A DNA stretch of 64,000 bases, taken from Rhododendron vialii. Taxonomy: Eukaryota; Streptophyta; Magnoliopsida; Ericales; Ericaceae. The notes under the pieces are model-generated. The model was given only the letters and a program-made list of their open reading frames with translations, ran no database searches and was not told where the DNA came from. Shown here in pieces: positions 2,255-56,672 of the stretch; position 1 is the first letter of the stretch; every line of letters begins with the position of its first letter. Where the stretch lies: contig NC_080560.1 of the NCBI RefSeq assembly GCF_030253575.1, forward strand, positions 31,919,501 to 31,983,500. Reading direction: 5' to 3'. The translations under genes and the position numbers were made by a program.

Positions 2255-2262
2255 TATATAAG
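2255..2262 (+). promoter_or_regulatory. TATA box of the four-repeat IDA-like gene
   Basis: The sequence TATATAAG lies 52 bp before the preferred ATG at 2307. A start site about 30 bp downstream would fall near 2285-2290. That would leave almost no leader for the ATG at 2289 but a normal short leader for the one at 2307. Confidence 0.6.
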
Positions 2263-2306
2263 AAAGTTCATCTTACTTCAACATATACATGAAAAAGGGG
2301 AAACAA

Positions 2307-3068
2307 ATGGTGAAGGCAATGTTGTTAAAGGTGGGGATTGCCCTTGTGCTCATGCTCCTTGCTTTGAGCTTCACGGCGGAGGCCAGAAGGTCGGAAGCAA
2401 GATGGCTTTCGGTGCATTTTGAGAAGCTACCCAAAGGTGCCCCAGTTCCTCTGTCTACCCCGTCGGGGAGGACCAATTCCGTACCACCCAAGGCGCCTCT
2501 GCCGCCGGAAAGTTTGGCAAACTCCCGCATGATGTTTCAACACCTGTCAGAAGCAAGATCGCTTTCGGTGCAATTTGGGAAGCTACCCAAAGGTGCCCCA
2601 GTCCCTCCGTCTGCCCCGTCGGGGAGGACCAATTTTGTACCACCCAAGTCGCCTCTGCCGCCGGACAATTTGGCAAACTCCCGCATGATGTTCCAACACC
2701 TGCCAGAAGTAAGATGGCTTTCGGTGCATTTTGGGAAGCTACCCAAAGGTGCCCCAGTCCCTCCGTCTGCCCCGTCGGGGAGGACCAATTCCGTACCACC
2801 CCAGGCGCCTCTGCCGCTGGACAGTTTGGCAAACTCCCGCATGATGTTCCAACACCTGCCGGAAGCAAGACGACTTTCAGTGCATTTTGGAAAGCTACCT
2901 AAAGGTGCCCCAGTCCCTCCGTCTGCCCCATCGGGGGGGACCAATTCTGTACCACTCAAGATGCCTCTGCCGCTGGACAATTTGGCTAACTCCCGCATGG
3001 TGTTCCAACACCTCTATCTGGCCCGTCCTGTTCAATCCATCCCGACACCTCCGTTGACCCGACTCTAA
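2307..3068 (+). CDS. multi-copy IDA-like (IDL) secreted peptide precursor, four repeats
   Basis: This encodes a 253-residue secreted precursor. Residues 1-26 form a signal peptide ending in AEA. Four tandem 52-residue units follow (exactly 156 bp each, at 2391, 2547, 2703 and 2859) and a 17-residue tail. Each unit holds the extended IDA motif: residues 38-57, 90-109, 142-161 and 194-213. Units 2 and 3 read FGKLPKGAPVPPSAPSGRTN, matching the IDA-family pattern F-G-x-L-P-K-G-x-P-x-P-P-S-A-P-S. Known IDA peptides act outside the cell on HAESA/HSL2 receptor kinases in organ abscission and cell separation; the same role here is inferred. The usual C-terminal RHN is RTN here. Unit 1 is degenerate (FEKL, PLSTPS) and unit 4 lost the Arg (SGGTN). 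Each unit ends in a conserved LANSRMMFQHL-type linker. An ATG at 2289 is in frame, but 2307 has better context (A at -3, G at +4) and TATA spacing. A poly(A)-like AATAAA lies at 3179. Confidence 0.8.
   Translation: MVKAMLLKVGIALVLMLLALSFTAEARRSEARWLSVHFEKLPKGAPVPLSTPSGRTNSVPPKAPLPPESLANSRMMFQHLSEARSLSVQFGKLPKGAPVPPSAPSGRTNFVPPKSPLPPDNLANSRMMFQHLPEVRWLSVHFGKLPKGAPVPPSAPSGRTNSVPPQAPLPLDSLANSRMMFQHLPEARRLSVHFGKLPKGAPVPPSAPSGGTNSVPLKMPLPLDNLANSRMVFQHLYLARPVQSIPTPPLTRL
2391..3014 (+). repeat. four in-frame 156-bp tandem coding repeats
   Basis: Units start at 2391, 2547, 2703 and 2859. The anchor 'agctac' recurs at 2425, 2581, 2737 and 2893, exactly 156 bp apart each time, so no indel has broken register. 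The length is a multiple of three (52 codons). The long antisense open frames over this interval are shadows of the repeat. Confidence 0.92.
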
Positions 3069-3433
3069 ACGAAAGTTGTCGCATAGAAGATTTATTTGAT
3101 GACATTTGGGGTCATCAAGGCCAATTGAGTCATATGATCATCCACATGTATTTCTTTTCCTTTTTCTATTACAGCGGAAATAAATATGATTATCAAATTT
3201 TGACATACAATAGCTTGTTTATTAAGCCTTCAAATTTCTGGCCAGGCAAAGACCTAAAATCATTTATTTCACACGGCAATCCTTCATCAACTGCCGCCCG
3301 TACAATCCAAACTAACATCTCAAAAAGTACAATTGTCATGAGTTAAGAAAATTCAAAATTCAATAGAAAGGAGAAGCAAAATTAAACAAACTGGCATTGA
3401 AGTTCTGACCACGTCACTGTAAATAAAAAATGC
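3069..3433. other. 3' flank of the first peptide gene
   Basis: This holds the probable 3'UTR, with AATAAA at 3179-3184, and then AT-rich sequence. No further gene is supported. Confidence 0.4.
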
Positions 3434-6414: not shown

Positions 6415-7330
6415 CTACAGACATAAACATAAAGCATGTAGATCCGCAGTAACGCCACTCCAAAACGGAGTGCCCCTGGCATCTGCTGAGGAAGTAGACG
6501 CTAGTGTTGCCTGCTTGGCCAGGCCATGGGCGAGACGAACATCTTGGCGGTCAACCTTGGTAATCCTGCAAAAAGCTAACTTCGAAATTTCCAATCCAAG
6601 GTTGCGCAACAAAAAGGTGTTGGCGAAGTGCGGCTCAGAGCGCCTTGCTAACTACATGACAGCATTTAAACAATCAGAATAAATGAAAACAACATTGAAG
6701 TTGTGAAGTACAGACCAGGCGACGCCCAAAAGAATGGCCATAAGTTCAGTTTGTAAGGGCGAGGCACTGTGGCATGCTACAGAACACTGTTGGAAGATAG
6801 TCCCATCATTATGGGTGGCATAGAAGCCCAGAACACTCCGTGGGTTGCTGGCTTTCCAAGCCCCATCAATATGCAAGTTAACCACTCGTTGTTCAAACAT
6901 AATGTAAGGAGGATAGGATTTGAGAACAAAGGTTGGTGGTGGCTGTGCGAGAGAGGGAGTGTGGTTCCGGTTGGTAAGAACGTTTTGAGTGTTCCATAGA
7001 GATGCTCGCTTAAACCAGAGAGAGCTGTAATGAGCCATGGCTAAGGCAGAACTGCAAGCAAAAGGCCTAGCGGAAAAGACTTGCTCATTTCTCGTTTTCC
7101 ATATCGCCCACAGAATTGCAATGAAGTGACGGAAGGCATCTAAGTCAGTGGCAGAGGTTGTGAGTTGTAAAATCCAATCCAGAAGCCAATTCTTAAAAGA
7201 AAAATTTGCCGTTTGGTCCGCCAAGGTGGTTAAGAATGGGGATCCTGCCCAAACCGGAACCGTGAGCGGGCATTGCAAAAAAAGTCGTGCAATTTTGAGA
7301 GAAAGTTGAAAGTCGTCAGACTCGATAGTC
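6415..7330 (-). pseudogene. non-LTR retrotransposon (LINE) remnant, zf-RVT tail plus RNase H
   Basis: Reading from high to low coordinates, the segment has a short zf-RVT-like stretch (QCPLTVPVW), the spacer typical of plant LINE proteins (AILWAIWKTRNEQVF), then an RNase H domain. The domain shows the D-E-D pattern: HIDGAW, LQTELMAI and IYSDCLNAVM. A stop follows (near 6652). The last helix continues in another frame at 6415-6612 (KVDRQDVRLAHGLAKQA). The reverse transcriptase and endonuclease are absent, so this is a 5'-truncated, disabled copy. A T-run at 6320 on the plus strand may be its reversed poly(A) tail. Confidence 0.75.
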
Positions 7331-9463: not shown

Positions 9464-9471
9464 TATAAAAG
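9464..9471 (+). promoter_or_regulatory. TATA box of the three-repeat IDA-like gene
   Basis: TATAAAAG lies 68 bp before the preferred ATG at 9532. The implied start site near 9495 gives a leader of about 35 nt to that ATG. Confidence 0.6.
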
Positions 9472-9531
9472 GGGCACTGAAGCTATTTTCAAGTATATAA
9501 TCAAAATATGTATACCAAAGGGAAGCATACA

Positions 9532-9927
9532 ATGGAGGTCTGCTCGAAGCTTGTGGCAATGGCTCTTGGGTTGGTTCTAGCTGTGGCTATGGTTGCTGGC
9601 CCGGCCGAGGCCCGAATGCTCGAAAGGGTTCGATTTGGGATGTTGCCTAAAGCATTCGTACCTCCATCTGGACCATCTTGGAGGTATACCTATAGCCCGC
9701 CACCACCAACACGACAACGCTTGCTGCATTTTGGGATGTTGCCTAAAGGGATCGTACCTCCATCTGGGCCATCTTGGAGGTATACCTATAGCCCGCCACC
9801 ACCAGGGCGACAACCCTCACTACATTTTGGGATGTTGCCTAAAGGGGTCATACTACGCCCATCTGGACCGTCTTCCAAAAGCAATGTACCGCCGTCGCCG
9901 TCGCCGCCACCGCCACCACATCACTAA
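9532..9927 (+). CDS. multi-copy IDA-like secreted peptide precursor, three repeats with SPPPP linkers
   Basis: This encodes a 131-residue secreted precursor. Residues 1-27 are a signal peptide ending PAEA. Three units follow at 32-residue (96-bp) spacing, starting at F35, F67 and F99. Units 1 and 2 carry the IDA/IDL-type core (FGMLPKGIVPPSGPSWRYT in unit 2), followed by YSPPPP. Unit 3 is altered (VILRPSGPSSKSN) and runs into a proline-rich tail ending PPPPPHH. SGPS cores occur in some IDL and PIP peptides, so receptor choice may differ from the first gene. SPPPP is the extensin Hyp-glycosylation pattern, which suggests these linkers could be hydroxylated and arabinosylated (inference). The C-terminal RHN of classical IDA is RYT here. 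An in-frame ATG at 9508 exists, but 9532 has A at -3 and G at +4 and suits the TATA spacing. AATAAA lies at 10008. It is on the same strand as the four-repeat gene 6.5 kb upstream. Confidence 0.75.
   Translation: MEVCSKLVAMALGLVLAVAMVAGPAEARMLERVRFGMLPKAFVPPSGPSWRYTYSPPPPTRQRLLHFGMLPKGIVPPSGPSWRYTYSPPPPGRQPSLHFGMLPKGVILRPSGPSSKSNVPPSPSPPPPPHH
9634..9886 (+). repeat. three in-frame 96-bp coding repeats
   Basis: Units start at 9634, 9730 and 9826. The first two contain an identical 'ccatcttggaggtatacc' block. The third is truncated and diverged after the SGPS core. Confidence 0.85.
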
Positions 9928-10696
9928 CTGCATTTATCTCCATCTGGAGATTGGGAGCCAAAAGATGGGCCCATTGTAGGTCCTTCTGTCATCTATAAAT
10001 CACATTGAATAAATGAAATCCCATGCCCAAACCTTCTGTACATCTACTCATCTCTCTCTACTTGGATATCCTTTTTCTTGGGCCATTTAATTTACTTATT
10101 TGGCCGAGTTTGTAATGAATGAAATCATTGTCTTTGGTATCATTCTATCTGAAACTTTCGTTAGATTTGCATTTGATGTATTCAAGTAATCATTCATCTT
10201 GACAAGCTGAATCTAAGAAGTAATAAAATTATGACCTCAAACAAAAGAAAATAACCAAATATGAAAAAAGTTCGGAACATGTGCCTTTAGAATCATCTCA
10301 TCTTAAACTTTTCTCAAACTTCGGTGCATATGTTTATAGTTCTCTAATTCCTTTTGTCTGGGCAAGTTACAAAACTTAAAATTTTGGCAAAAAGTTGATA
10401 CTAAATTTTTTTCCAAAATTCGAATAACGCCAAATGTTTTTAAGAATAATTAATTTTGTCCAAATTCATCGTTACTGTTTTTGGAAGATTCAATGCACAC
10501 AGATCCACAGTGATGGGTGTGTGGGGCCCACTTTGGGTCCCACAAATATATCCAAACCATTCATTACATTTCAAATAGTCTTTTATTCATTCCTCCAAAA
10601 ATCAACTCAATATGAGAGTGTTTGATCCGATCTTTCAATTTATTGTTTATAGAGCTTTGGAGAAAAGTTAAACAAGTTGGTAGTGTTGTTTGGGAT
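9928..10696. other. 3' flank and intergenic
   Basis: Contains the AATAAA at 10008-10013 of the peptide gene. After that it is AT-rich sequence with no supported gene. Confidence 0.4.
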
Positions 10697-18410: not shown

Positions 18411-20602
18411 TTAAAGAGTATTACCGGATTCAAGTGCCTCCACCTCATCATCAAGTGCCCCTCGAAGAGATATATGAGTAGGACTCCTCAACCAATTTTG
18501 TGCATAAATAAGGGCCTCCGCTACTTTGGGAGAAAGAGAGGTCCGGTATGGATCAAGAATACGTCCTCCAGTGCTAAAAGCGGATTCGGATGCAACGGTA
18601 GATACCGGAATAGCTAGAATGTCTCGTACCATTTGAGAGAGAATGGGATACCTAGGAGAATTAACTTATCACCATGAACTTTAGAGTCTTCCTTACTCTC
18701 CAACTAATACCTCTCTAACTCCGATTTGCTCACCATATTATTCTCCTCTTCCATGTGTCGCTCAAATTCATCGTCCATTTCCTCACAAAAATTCATATAC
18801 TCCTTTGAATTCTTCTCACTTCTAAAGGACTCACCAACATTTTGTGTTTTCTCATGTTCAACACTCTTCTTCTCATACCAATTAAAAAGCTTTAGCATCC
18901 CCTCTTTTATCTCAATAACCTTCTTTTCAACAATACTTTTCTCATAGTGTTTGTTCAAGCTCCATCTCACATAAACAAATTTGTAACGGGGATCAAGAAC
19001 ATTGGCATACAACAATAAAGAGTTTATTTTGTCAAACTTACCCCAATATTTGTCATACTTTTTGTTCATGCCACTAGCCAAAACCTTCAACTTAGGGTTA
19101 TCACTATTTTCCAACTTAGCAATTGCAGTTTTTATGGTCATGATCTCTTTGAAAAATGTATTGCATGTCACATACAAAGAACCCGAAAATTTCTCGGCTA
19201 GAATGTAAAACACCTTAAGAACTTCAACATACATTTCCACAACATTCCAATCATCACTACTAGGAGTACCATGTGTTACTTGTTTCCCTCTCCCTTTCCC
19301 TTGACCCCTCTCATGTTGTTTCTCGAGATTCATAATGTCACTTAACCCACCATGTACTTCCCCTTCCAATTCATTATCTACAGATTCTACACCAATCTCA
19401 TCCTCTCTAACACCAACAATAAGTGAGAGATTATCTTCATCTTCTAGTCTCTCAAAAGCTTTTTGAAACATCAATGCTCTTTCCAACATAAAGTTTGTTG
19501 CATTCCAACGAGTAGCAACATCTAAACATGGCACAAGTTTAGAAACAATTTTTTCTTTATCACAACATGATCTAAACTTGGCATACCTTTGCGGTGAGGA
19601 TCTCACATGCCTCACAATGTTGCGCACTCTTGCAATTGACACATCAACATCTTTCAACCCCTCACGTACAACCAAATTCAATATATGAGCACAACACCTA
19701 ACATGTAAATACTCGTGGTCTAGAATAGTGGTGTCTCTTTTCTTGGTCTTCTTTTTCAAAAAATCAATTATGCCATCATTGGATTTTGCATTATCGATTG
19801 TGATTGTCAAAAATTTGTCAATCCCCCATTCCACCAAACATTCTTCCACCACCTTACCAAGTGTCTCTCCCTTGTGGTTTGGAACTAAACAAAAGTTAAG
19901 AATTTTTTTGTGAAGCTTCCAATCAAAATCAATGAAATGAGCAGTGAGACACATATAGTTAAGATTTTGAAGAGAAGTCCAAGTGTCCGTGGTAAGACAA
20001 ATTCGTTGGTCTTTAAGTGCTCTTTTCAAAGATTTCTTCCCATCTTGGTATATTTTCATACAATCTTTTGCGACCATTAATCTACCTGGCGGATTTTCCC
20101 ACTTTGGTTGCACCACATATATGAACCGTTTAAAACCTTGACCCTCAACAAAACGAAATGGCAACTCATCAAGAATAATCATTTCAGCCAAGGCCTTTCT
20201 ACATGCCTCCACACTAAAGCTAACGGAGGTAAGCTTTGGAACCGCGCCGGTGCCTCCTCCATTCATGGGTTCAAACGCTAGGGTTTTTTGTCTCTTACCT
20301 GGGTTCTTCTTCAAATTGTACTGGCTAAACTCATACTGTCTACATATCAACTTAATATGTGTTTTCATTGATGATGTCCCATTAGAATTTGAATCACAAG
20401 TATATATTTGGCCACAATGGTTACAAACAGCCTTTTGCTTTTGTCCTTCAACCTTTTCCAATTTCTCAAAATGATCCCAGACTTCAGACTGATTAGCCCT
20501 ACGTTTCGGACTACGTTTCGGACTCTGTTCATCCACTGTGATGGGTTCGTTATCAACATTATTAGATCCAATACCAGTAACAGTAACACCAGAATCATCC
20601 AT
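18411..20602 (-). pseudogene. hAT transposase (BED zinc finger, RICESLEEPER-type), disrupted
   Basis: The first 632 codons are open from the ATG at 20602. A BED zinc finger lies at residues 41-87 (C60, C63, H82, C87). The hAT catalytic core follows: TTDTWTS, TITIDNAKSND, the CCAHILNLVV motif and LDVATRWNATN. A TAG stop then interrupts at 18704-18706, right after ELERY. A small out-of-frame deletion lies just downstream, within 18633-18703. The C-terminal hAT dimerisation region continues in a shifted frame at 18411-18632 (SESAFSTGGRILDPYR). Transposases of this type bind subterminal repeats and cut the element out as part of a dimer; loss of the dimerisation region should inactivate it. No intron was needed to explain the frame. 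Confidence 0.92.
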
Positions 20603-49910: not shown

Positions 49911-50969
49911 TCAAGCTTTCGAAGCCGCTCTCTCCTTTTCCATCGTCTGCGCCAAAACCTTAGTTGCAATCATATTATCATCGAAATATTGCGCATACGG
50001 GTGCCCCTTAGGAACCAATCTCCTGTACTTCTGAAAATGCTTCTCTGCCTCATCTTGTTTCTTCAACAAAGTATATATGATTCCCTGACACAAATAAGGC
50101 CGGAAATCGCTCGGCTCCTCCTTCACAAGCTCCTGATAGACACTCAATGCATCATTGTAATTGCCCTCAATAACCCTCATTTGCGCAATCAAAAGCTTAA
50201 AGTCCCTCAATTTGTCCGTCTTCTTGTCTCTCTTGCACAAATCCATGACTTCCCTAACCCTCTCCTCAATCTCCTTCGACTCAAATTCCGAATCGGACTG
50301 AGACGCCGCCATTACCAGCCCGTGATAGGCCTCCACGAGAGACGGGTCTTTCTCTAGTATCTCATTAAACCCTACTTTCGCCTTTTCAAGCTCATCATTA
50401 TCCAAATGCAAGTAGGATTTCAACAATGCCCATTCTATATCAGAGGGTTCTAATCTTATCAGCTTCTCTACAATCGAAATCGCTTCTTTGAGCTTACCTC
50501 TCTTGATCTTCAACTCCATTAAGCTCCGGAGGGTTTTGATGTCATCCGGATTTGAGCTCAAGTACTTTTTTAGGCCTCTCTCTTTCTCGCCATCAGAAAT
50601 TGGTTCTTTCATTGCTTCAGTTTCCACTGTGGGCGGAGCGGAAAAGGCGGCGGCCGCAACAAGAGGTTTTTGGAGGTTGAAACGGGCGAAGAAGACGGCG
50701 GTGGCTGCGACTGCGGCGAGGGTGATGGTTTTGACGAGAGAGAAAGGGAGGGGGTTTGGGGTTTCTGCGAAGTAGGGTTTATGGGTTTTAGGGTTTGACA
50801 AGAGGGGGGCTAGTAATGAGGAGGAGGGTTTTGCTCTGACTGATGATCTGAGGGACGATGGAGGTGGCGGCGGGGTTCTTGCGAAGAGAAGTGAAATGGG
50901 GGTTGAGAATGGTGGACGGTGGTGGCGGAGTGGCTGGTGGCGGTGGTGGATTTTGGAGACAGCTTCCAT
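49911..50969 (-). CDS. SG1: SLOW GREEN 1-like plastid TPR protein
   Basis: The intronless 352-residue frame starts at MEAVSKIHHR. Residues 1-45 are rich in Ser, Arg, Pro and His and lack acids, like a chloroplast transit peptide. A hydrophobic stretch lies at about 80-96 (TITLAAVAATAVFFARF). From residue 142 to 322 there are four to five TPR-type helical pairs, with sequences such as GKLKEAISIVEKLIRLEPSD and QDEAEKHFQKYRRLVPKGHP. Order, length and tail match plant SLOW GREEN 1, a plastid TPR protein needed for chloroplast development in young leaves. The open frame extends 45 codons upstream to 51104, but that extension is not transit-like; MEAV at 50969 is the better start. This is the only intact housekeeping gene in the window. 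Confidence 0.8.
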   Translation of the reverse strand: MEAVSKIHHRHQPLRHHRPPFSTPISLLFARTPPPPPSSLRSSVRAKPSSSLLAPLLSNPKTHKPYFAETPNPLPFSLVKTITLAAVAATAVFFARFNLQKPLVAAAAFSAPPTVETEAMKEPISDGEKERGLKKYLSSNPDDIKTLRSLMELKIKRGKLKEAISIVEKLIRLEPSDIEWALLKSYLHLDNDELEKAKVGFNEILEKDPSLVEAYHGLVMAASQSDSEFESKEIEERVREVMDLCKRDKKTDKLRDFKLLIAQMRVIEGNYNDALSVYQELVKEEPSDFRPYLCQGIIYTLLKKQDEAEKHFQKYRRLVPKGHPYAQYFDDNMIATKVLAQTMEKERAASKA

Positions 50970-51104
50970 GGTGGCTCCAGAGAGAATCCTAAAACCCTGG
51001 TTTACATAGGGTGCGGGACAAGGAGAAGAACGGGGAGAGAGTGATGAGCATGTGATTTGAACCCTGAGATGGCCCGAAGGTTTTGGGCCTGCGAGGCCGG
51101 ACAT

Positions 51105-54391: not shown

Positions 54392-55240
54392 GGTAATGCT
54401 TTTTTTTTTTTTCCCGCTTATATACATATCAAAAAGGAATATGATTTGTTCTATTCCTTTGTCTATAAATTTTATTTAGTTGAAATTTTTATGGCTCCAT
54501 CAAATTACATATTTGCTTCTACCAAATGTAGGTTCATGGGCTGATAAAGAAGAAAAGTTCTTTTGTGACTTTTTGCTGAAGATGTAGATATCATCTAGCT
54601 AGTGTGCTAGTTGTCATGATCTCTTGGTTGAAGCCTCTTTGTTGATATTTTGGTGGCAAGGCTTATACTCCACTTTTGGGATACATAGTTGTTTTGGTTG
54701 AAGCCTTTTTGTTGGTATTTTTTGACTAGGCTTGTACTCGACTTTTGGGATAGACGAATGTTTTGGAAGGATGTAGTACTCTAATTTTCTTCTATGTAAT
54801 GCTAGTCATTTTGTTCTACTCATTGGTTTTCGTAGCCTTGGTTGTATGTGTTAATAAGGTGGTTTTGTAGTGGATTCTGAAGGCTATCCCGTTGAGCCTT
54901 CCGTTTGGTTGATAATGTTGGTTATACAAGAAAACTTTGTTTTTCTTGGCTATTCAATTCAATTTTGGGAAATATAGTGCTATATGGATTTAAGTAACAC
55001 CAAAGCCATCAATTCAGGTCAAAAGTAATTATTTCAAATCAATTCTAATAGTTTTGACTTGGTCTTTTATACCTCAAAGAAGGTTGAGGTTGAATGTAGA
55101 TGCCTCCCCAACATTCCACAATCCGATGTAGACTGATCTTTATGCAAATTTATATTGGTCTTCATTTATATTAAGTGTAGTTATAATTTTGACTTGTTTA
55201 TAAATGCATGTTAAATAGATGGTTCAACTAACTTTTCACA
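54392..55240. other. intergenic, no gene seen
   Basis: T-rich. A phrase 'ttggttgaagcctttttgttg' is repeated at about 54626 and 54697. No gene. Confidence 0.35.
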
Positions 55241-56115
55241 CTTATCACTTGCCAAAAAATATGACGTGGTCTTTTTACAACAAAGATATGGTCCACAAAG
55301 GCATACAGTGTAGTCTTTTAGCAATATGGACTTTGTCTTAAAAGAACCTCCACGTAACTTTGAACGCTTATCACTTGCTAAAAAATATGACGTGCTCTTT
55401 ATACAATAAACATATGGTCCACAAAGACTTAGAGTGTTGTCTTTTTGCAATATGGACTTGGTCTTTGTCTTCAAAGAACCATTTCCTAATTTTTCACCCC
55501 TTCACACTTATCACTTGTCAAAAAATATGACATGCACTTTATACAATAAACATGTGGTCCATACAGAAATAGGGTGTAGTCTTTTAGCAATATAGACTTG
55601 GTCTTGGTCTTGAAAGAACCACCAACTTTCCACGCTTACCACTTGCCCAAAAATTTGACGTGTTTTTTATACAATAAACATGTGGTCCATACAGACATAG
55701 AGTGTAGTTTTTTACCAATATGGACTTGGTATTAAAACAACCTCCGCCTAACTTTGAACGCTTACCACTTGTCAAAAAATATGACGTGCTCTTTATACAA
55801 TAAACATGTGGTCCATACAGACATAGTGTGTAGTCTTTTAGCAATATATACTTGGTCTTGGTTTTGAAAGAACCACCAACTTTCCACGCTTACCACTTGC
55901 CCAAAAATATGATGTGCTCTTTATACAATAAACATGTGGTCCATAGAGACATAGGGTGTAGTCTTTTAGTAATATAGACTTGGTCTTAGTGTTGAAAGAA
56001 CCATCAACTTTCCACGCTTACCACTTGCCCAAAAAATATGTCGTGCTCTTTATACAATAAACATGTGGTTCTTACAGACATAGGGTGTAGTCTTTTATCA
56101 ATATAGACTTGGTAT
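55241..56115. repeat. seven-unit tandem array of about 128 bp
   Basis: Units begin with 'cttatcacttg/cttaccacttg' at 55241, 55367, 55507, 55635, 55761, 55889 and 56017, so spacing is 126, 140, 128, 126, 128 and 128 bp. Each holds 'aaaaatatgacgtgctcttt', 'ataaacatgtggtccata' and 'tagtcttttagcaatat'. The minus strand gives short repetitive open frames, but the 128-bp spacing breaks frame, so coding is unlikely. Confidence 0.92.
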
Positions 56116-56672
56116 TGGGTAAATTAAAATTTGGTCGTTAAAGATAAAAAGTGTAGTATTTAGAAACCCATAGACTGTCTTTCATGATGGTGTAATAGAA
56201 AGTCTTTTGTATCTTTTTAGTTGCCCTTTTTGGCCCAAATAAACTTGGTTGAGATTGAATGGAGGGTAGGTCTCATTAGGGAGACGTAAAAAGCCGACAA
56301 AATACATAATCCCTGCATAATAATTTAAACCAAATAGGCCAACAAACTACATAATCCGTACATAATAATTTAAACCAAATGGCCCAACAAAATACATAAT
56401 CCCTACTTCATTGCCTATTCGATTATGATGAAGCATGGACAATTGAAGGACTCGAGCTAGTGAGGGAGACAATTAGGGGATGAAATTTGGAGAGCAAGGT
56501 CAGGGCGTCGTCGTAGGGGTAACTCCTACGCGGATGGGGAGCACAGAAACCCTAGAGAGAGGAAGGAGAGAGTTACGTTGTACTGGAGAGGGAGAAGGAG
56601 GGGGGGTGGCGTTGAAGGATACGACGTTGTCTAATAAGGGTAGAATGGTCCATTCCGGACATGGTTACCATG
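56116..56672. other. intergenic, gene-leader-like
   Basis: The segment 56480-56672 resembles 58900-59252 weakly ('ggatggggagca', 'aaccctaga/aaccctaaa', 'taagggtagaatggtcc'). It could be an old duplicated gene leader. No protein is recognised. Confidence 0.35.

Follow-up and report, generated by a model that had tools for sequence, protein, structure and literature searches.

The textbook IDA precursor carries one copy of its peptide, and the locus considered here raises the question of whether a single plant transcript may deliver several IDA-like ligands. The locus lies in a 64,000-nucleotide stretch of Rhododendron vialii DNA (contig NC_080560.1, G+C 37.7%), hereafter the window, in which the first-pass annotation had read, from the letters alone, a polyprotein-type IDA-like precursor. 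This reading fits both the sequence and its relatives, with the qualification that the predicted peptides are not plain IDA, given a Thr at position 11 and the loss of Arg-10 in unit 4; the same annotation missed a second gene at 9532-9927 and an out-of-frame motif, termed here motif B. Taken together, the two genes (gene 1 and gene 2) probably encode secreted multi-ligand IDA-like prohormones.

Organization of gene 1

The open frame proposed at 2307..3068 (+) is present and corresponds to the CDS of a four-motif IDA-like precursor of 253 aa; a second in-frame ATG at 2289 would give a product of 259 aa, the stop ending at 3068. The start at 2307 is favored because the Actinidia protein P0005 begins MVMARLLCVG and the R. 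simsii protein P0004 has MVKTMLLKVG at this place. The signal peptide claimed for the precursor agrees with a hydrophobic N-terminal stretch (best 10-residue Kyte-Doolittle mean 3.3), and is predicted from hydrophobicity at 2307..2384 (+), with a putative end after ...FTAEA. A TATA-like box, TATATAA, lies at 2255..2261 (+), 52 bases 5' of the ATG at 2307, and is at most suggestive since the plus strand of the window holds 80 TATAWAW matches; a polyadenylation-like signal, AATAAA, is found at 3179..3184 (+). The precursor is probably disordered. Pfam returned only sub-cutoff matches for genes 1 and 2, to Cytochrom_B559 and RHS_repeat, which are taken as chance, and the Pfam set used also misses P0122, a protein named 'Protein IDA'; the single match among solved structures, MITSUBA-1 by name (E 0.61), was likewise taken as chance.

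The four in-frame 156-bp units are recovered by TRF as 4.0 copies at 2394-3013 (matches 91%, indels 0%, score 1007), but they are not exact, as had been stated, the pairwise identity being 132-146 of 156 bases. Delimited by TRF and unit alignment, units 1 to 4 occupy 2394..2549, 2550..2705, 2706..2861 and 2862..3017 (all +), each of 156 bp, with the TRF array stopping at 3013 within the last. Every unit carries one motif, scored with a leave-out IDA-like profile of 139 motifs built without Rhododendron and Actinidia sequences: A1, FEKLPKGAPVPLSTPSGRTN, at 2418..2477 (27.2 bits); A2 and A3, both FGKLPKGAPVPPSAPSGRTN, at 2574..2633 and 2730..2789 (38.5 bits each), exactly as noted earlier for units 2 and 3; and A4, FGKLPKGAPVPPSAPSGGTN, with Gly for Arg at position 10, at 2886..2945 (36.0 bits), all on the plus strand. 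All four are IDA-like, and units 1 (FEKLPKGAPVPLSTPSGRTN) and 4 (FGKLPKGAPVPPSAPSGGTN) differ from the other two inside the motif. In the unit-1 motif, Leu takes the place of Pro at position 4, Thr that of Ala at position 6, and Glu that of the Gly in FG; position 9 of the gene-1 peptides is Gly, not Lys; Arg-10 is present in units 1-3 and missing from unit 4; and 4/4 units carry Thr instead of His at position 11, giving ThrAsn at 11-12. The residues after Asn are SV in units 1, 3, and 4 and FV in unit 2, and the last Asn is followed by 40 residues to the protein end, while the earlier units precede further units. The conserved Pro/Ser of the PIP motif and the upstream FGxLPKG are found, by leave-out profile bits, in both genes, and an SGPS-type core ending in Asn in 4/4 gene-1 units and 1/3 gene-2 motifs. 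A chance origin of the motifs is ruled out, as shuffled sequences stay below their scores: the top value was 10.7 bits in 1,000 dinucleotide shuffles of 2289-3400, versus 27.2-38.5 for the gene-1 motifs, and 8.4 bits in five shuffles of the whole window.

A neighboring precursor gene

Gene 2, at 9532..9927 (+), is the CDS of a three-motif IDA-like precursor of 131 aa built on 96-bp units, which TRF reports as 2.5 copies with 86% matches, and its N-terminus reaches a best 10-residue hydrophobicity of 2.9. The motifs are FGMLPKAFVPPSGPSWRY at 9634..9687 (28.3 bits), FGMLPKGIVPPSGPSWRY at 9730..9783 (31.3 bits), and FGMLPKGVILRPSGPSSKSN at 9826..9885 (15.0 bits), all on the plus strand and scored with the leave-out profile. 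Positions 11-12 read TyrThr, TyrThr, and SerAsn, respectively, so that motifs 1 and 2 lack Asn-12; motif 1 is also without the Gly of LPKG, and motif 3 is followed by 13 residues to the protein end. A TATA-like box, TATAAAA, lies at 9464..9470 (+), 68 bases 5' of the ATG, a further one, TATATAA, begins at 9494 (+), and AATAAA, a polyadenylation-like signal, is found at 10008..10013 (+), all by sequence match. The nearest relatives of gene 2 among the matches listed are P0006 of R. molle, with three motifs, and P0007 of R. griersonianum, with two. In the latter species, RHGRI_011633 and RHGRI_011637, both placed on contigs of 66,263,584 bases, suggest that genes 1 and 2 are linked there likewise. 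Beyond the two genes, the best six-frame profile score in the window was only 3.8 bits.

Other features of the window are, on the minus strand, an ORF between the two genes (6652-7278) with a weak, sub-cutoff RVT_3 match, possibly a retroelement remnant; a 632-aa ORF (18704-20602) with a BED zinc finger and a hAT-like RNase H fold, that is, a hAT-type transposase; and a tetratricopeptide-repeat protein of 397 aa (49911-51104). A tandem array of a 128/254-bp unit lies at 55227-56118, with 6.9 copies of 128 bp at 79% matches by TRF.

A second motif outside the gene-1 frame

Off the gene-1 frame, each unit is accompanied by what we read as a relic of a second motif. The copy after unit 4, at 2981..3028 (+) in the third reading frame, is whole and contains a stop, FG*LPHGVPTPLSGPS; for its part at 2990-3028 the full profile gives 14.0 bits and the leave-out profile 14.3, values that 0/1,000 shuffles reach. 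The copies in units 1, 2, and 3 are halves: FGKLPHDVSTP at 2513..2545, identified by reading and carrying no score of its own, and FGKLPHDVPTP at 2669..2701 and at 2825..2857, both at or below 3.9 bits (all +). These halves are without a significant score of their own and are recognized by their likeness to the last copy; since they break off midway, the repeat junction lies inside motif B. In P0005 of Actinidia rufa, FGKLPKG-type and FGMFPYGG-type motifs alternate within one frame, and the equation of this second type with motif B is a visual one, because the second-type motifs fall below the profile threshold. We infer an ancestor with two motifs, of which a frameshift displaced the second before the 156-bp unit was amplified; the frames of the R. 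griersonianum and R. simsii proteins, compared at the protein level only, are consistent with this order. Motif B would then be a frozen record of the loss of a ligand from a polyprotein hormone.

Relatives, unit turnover and selection

The closest proteins to gene 1 among the matches listed are those of R. griersonianum and R. simsii, and a multi-motif relative occurs in Actinidia. The number of units is four in the window, two in R. griersonianum P0003, and one in R. simsii P0004, whose model may be truncated. The repeat frame, whose conservation in related genomes had been named as a check on the precursor, is kept in R. griersonianum with its two units and in Actinidia rufa with other unit lengths. 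Unit 1 of P0003 shares FEK with unit 1 of the window, and the last P0003 unit shares Gly-10 and the MVFQHLY end with unit 4, marker residues which suggest that the first and last gene-1 units are the old ones. This age assignment rests on marker residues and no tree, as overall identities do not favor those pairs: unit 1 of R. griersonianum is 81% identical to window unit 1 and 87% to unit 3, and its unit 2 is 81% identical to window unit 4 and 83% to unit 3.

The other sign that had been looked for, more synonymous change among the units than expected, is not significant and has been set aside as proof of selection: approximately 19 nonsynonymous and 11 synonymous changes were counted between the gene-1 units (P = 0.28), with 4:4 in the core (P = 0.20) and P = 0.47 in the linker. 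Pairwise pN/pS values, from pairs that are not independent, are smaller for the core (0.047/0.115) than for the linker (0.121/0.152), and among units 1-3 Ka is about equal to Ks, slightly over or under. Two 'stop' cells in the between-unit count are judged to reflect hypothetical intermediates at a codon that changed more than once, because the gene-1 frame itself has no stop. Asn-12, by contrast, is present in 12/12 A-type motifs (four in the window, two in R. griersonianum, one in R. simsii, and three plus two in Actinidia rufa), and this conservation across genera is a stronger sign of selection than the changes between units.

Predicted processing and perception

We infer the secretion, cleavage, hydroxylation, receptor, expression, and effect of the gene-1 and gene-2 products, and the proposed scheme would run as follows. 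The precursor would pass into the secretory route; a subtilase-type protease would cut every LPKG at its K/G bond, and with trimming behind the Asn of ...GRTN, up to four 14-residue peptides, GAPVPPSAPSGRTN and its variants, would be freed from gene 1; after hydroxylation of their central Pro, these peptides would be perceived by receptors of the HAESA type together with a SERK co-receptor. One identical peptide would come from units 2 and 3, and the variants of units 1 and 4 would probably be weaker. The number of units differs between species, probably by unequal exchange.

The LPK/G-x-PxPPSxPSxxxN spacing in gene 1 equals that of IDA. Three subtilases cleave IDA at the K/G of LPKG, and SV commonly comes next after the IDA/IDL1 peptide (PMC6681299, excerpt); the gene-1 units, which read LPK/GAPVPPSAPSGRTN/SV, fit this processing. 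In the HAESA complex, the receptor is contacted by the Asn carboxylate and encloses the hydroxylated Pro; peptides that lack the Asn or are extended at the C-terminus no longer bind (PMC4848090, excerpt). Binding of IDA mutants with Lys/Arg or Lys/Arg/His changed to Ala is 10- to 30-fold worse (PMC4848090 and PMC8847575, excerpts), the Lys/Arg/His change lowering HSL1 binding approximately 15-fold, and approximately 30-fold with SERK1 (PMC8847575, excerpt). From this loss of binding, Thr-11, and the Gly-10 of unit 4, may weaken the ligand. Gly-9 by itself may be of less consequence, given that AtIDL1 complements ida with a Met at position 9 (PMC4627355, excerpt). On this analysis, gene 1 would be expected to give active peptides mixed with weaker ones.

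Relation to known peptide families

The two precursors resemble IDA and IDL1-8 in a hydrophobic N-terminus that may be a signal peptide and in FGxLPKG followed by PxPPSxPS, together with Arg-10 and Asn-12 in gene-1 units 1-3; gene 1 differs from them in its several motifs, its length of 253 aa, and Thr-11 for His. Its TN tail is shared with IDL7 of Arabidopsis, listed with a KKTN tail, SRPGSGPSKKTN, in a table of PMC5853212 (excerpt). An angiosperm survey used as rules a length below 120 aa, a C-terminal motif, and HisAsn (PMC4627355, as excerpted); genes 1 and 2, with 253 and 131 aa, spread motifs, and no HisAsn, fall outside the rules so excerpted, and such a survey would therefore omit them; by that definition, their make-up is IDA-like without their being filed as members. 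In a wider sense of IDL, 4-13 residues follow Asn (PMC5853212, excerpt), compared with 40 in gene 1 and 13 in gene 2.

Several motifs per precursor are also found in PIP2, PIP3, and PIPL1, which carry two SGPS motifs (PMC4526919, excerpt), but PIP/PIPL motifs end in GxGH, which is absent by eye from both translations. Tandem ligand motifs in one precursor are equally a trait of CLE and CEP precursors of the multi-domain type and of some secreted peptides of wheat: an excerpt of PMC9532867 cites 59 multi-CLE genes in 27 species and describes a pair of wheat genes that encode seven and eight domains, and a predictor places one of the pair in the IDA family. In contrast to the IDA-like motif of genes 1 and 2, those wheat domains are closer to CLE save for the last two residues (same excerpt). 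Nematode MAP/CLE-like proteins also repeat plant-ligand-like motifs in one gene (PMC5972575, excerpt), although theirs are CLE-type. Apart from the wheat remark in PMC9532867, no other multi-EPIP IDA-like precursor appeared among the open-access literature matches listed, a set mostly outside of which subscription papers lie.

A wider multi-motif family

Three protein searches, of which the first and third scored the best 7,995 and 7,988 candidates sharing most words, gave 3, 33, and 111 rows and 125 different proteins, including the two of the window. Among the matches listed, 92/125 proteins have at least two motifs and 33/125 have one (cut-off 6 bits), in a set biased by its multi-motif queries, a counting profile drawn from the same proteins, retained redundancy, and many possible fragments; 2,500 residue-shuffled versions hold seven motifs in total, with a maximum of one per protein. 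The architecture that the first-pass annotation had set apart from single-motif IDA is not special to this locus, whose uniqueness is ruled out by the other multi-motif proteins among the matches listed. When only listed proteins with a named organism are considered (n = 77), 54 have at least two motifs, and these come from 38 of 46 genera, including the monocot Dioscorea and the fern Ceratopteris, the latter matching at E 3e-4 only. The number of repeats per multi-motif protein is 2-5 at 6 bits, and a hydrophobic 10-mer begins within the first 60 residues of 83/92.

Motif likeness has a mean of 0.65 within proteins versus 0.48 between proteins, and exceeds the protein's own mean between-protein value in 48/61 cases, the other 31 of the 92 being without two alignable motifs; this higher likeness within proteins fits repeated local amplification. 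In the multi-motif proteins, 196 of 248 motifs have readable tails, of which 69 are [TS]S, 9 are HN, and 33 have Asn-12, the corresponding figures for the single-motif proteins being 4, 15, and 17 of 32 readable tails from 33 motifs. With Asn-12 in only 33/196 tails, much of the multi-motif set may not use HAESA in the manner of IDA. Solanaceae IDA-like peptides with CRSS tails are nonetheless listed in PMC6971993 and PMC12903503 (excerpts), so that other authors, as with the KKTN tail of IDL7, already treat tails of this kind as IDA-like. The profile search also brings in single-motif proteins named 'Protein IDA' (Capsicum, P0122) and 'Protein IDA-LIKE' (Quillaja, P0100), and precomputed Pfam PF27884 is found on both, as well as on P0002, P0003, and P0004, and not on P0005.

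Individual members of the set vary in appearance: P0043 of Corchorus olitorius, with 134 aa, has three identical 20-residue motifs, FEMLPKGVPIPPSGPSTRTS, and P0113 of Ceratopteris richardii, at E 3e-4 only, has three PPSxPS cores without FGxLPKG. Neighboring locus numbers are seen for P0027/P0030 in Camellia, P0005/P0067 in Actinidia, P0059/P0066 in Hibiscus, and P0072/P0077 in Sesamum, which suggests that multi-motif genes can lie in tandem clusters.

More tentatively, and somewhat short of an even chance, the matches may represent a large, mostly unnamed multi-ligand IDA-like subfamily with R-[TS]-[SN] rather than R-H-N tails, in which units are born, lost, and frame-shifted, so that how many ligands one transcript yields, and in what mix, varies from species to species.

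Alternative explanations

The substitutions within the gene-1 motifs bear on how many units are productive. Leu-4 and Thr-6 in unit 1 and Gly-10 in unit 4 may mean that only units 2 and 3, with unit 1 as a further candidate, supply ligand, and that the peptides from unit 4 and gene 2 are weak or compete with it; the outcome would be a mixture and not the raised dose that the first-pass annotation had put forward as one option. This possibility deserves weight but is less likely than not. Shedding was delayed by overexpression of Lys/Arg-to-Ala IDA, for which a weak dominant-negative effect was suggested (PMC4848090, excerpt), and multi-domain TDIF-like genes expressed in Arabidopsis did not raise TDIF-like activity (PMC9532867, excerpt), both in line with this partition; nevertheless, Gly-10 also stands in the last unit of R. 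griersonianum and may be tolerated or useful.

Two further explanations would deny the precursors a hormonal role. That the tandem array drifts without function, in a gene decaying since a frameshift removed its second motif, is unlikely: motif B is indeed out of frame, the between-unit ratio of nonsynonymous to synonymous changes is near neutral, and copy number varies among species, but the frame is maintained in the R. griersonianum and R. simsii proteins, Asn-12 is retained in all 12 A motifs, those of Actinidia included, and TATA-like and AATAAA signals are in place. The four units are also without in-frame stop or indel, a weak point, since with 32 inferred changes the absence of stops has a chance expectation of 44%. 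Slightly less likely still is a proline-rich cell-wall protein of the extensin or hydroxyproline-rich glycoprotein type, with repeats that are structural. Names such as 'proline-rich protein HaeIII subfamily 1-like', 'Hydroxyproline-rich glycoprotein', and 'Extensin domain-containing protein' among the relatives point in this direction, as do three SPPPP in gene 2 and at least one SPPPP in 29/92 multi-motif proteins; gene 1, however, has no SPPP, just 12/92 multi-motif proteins have at least two, repeats per protein are few, and FGxLPKG and the PPSxPS core recur while the sequence between cores varies.

Biological implications

If genes 1 and 2 are multi-ligand prohormones, as seems probable, their products would join the IDA-type peptides, which govern the shedding of organs, the emergence of lateral roots, and responses to stress. 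Rhododendron offers a ready series of one, two, and four units, the single-unit model being possibly truncated. Should multi-ligand precursors prove common, ligand counts per genome would be too low, and effects of dose and mixture would become testable. If the subfamily tentatively outlined above is real, the IDA pathway would have a second input, coded by mixture or dose, which the criteria of at least one family survey, on length and on tail, would have excluded.
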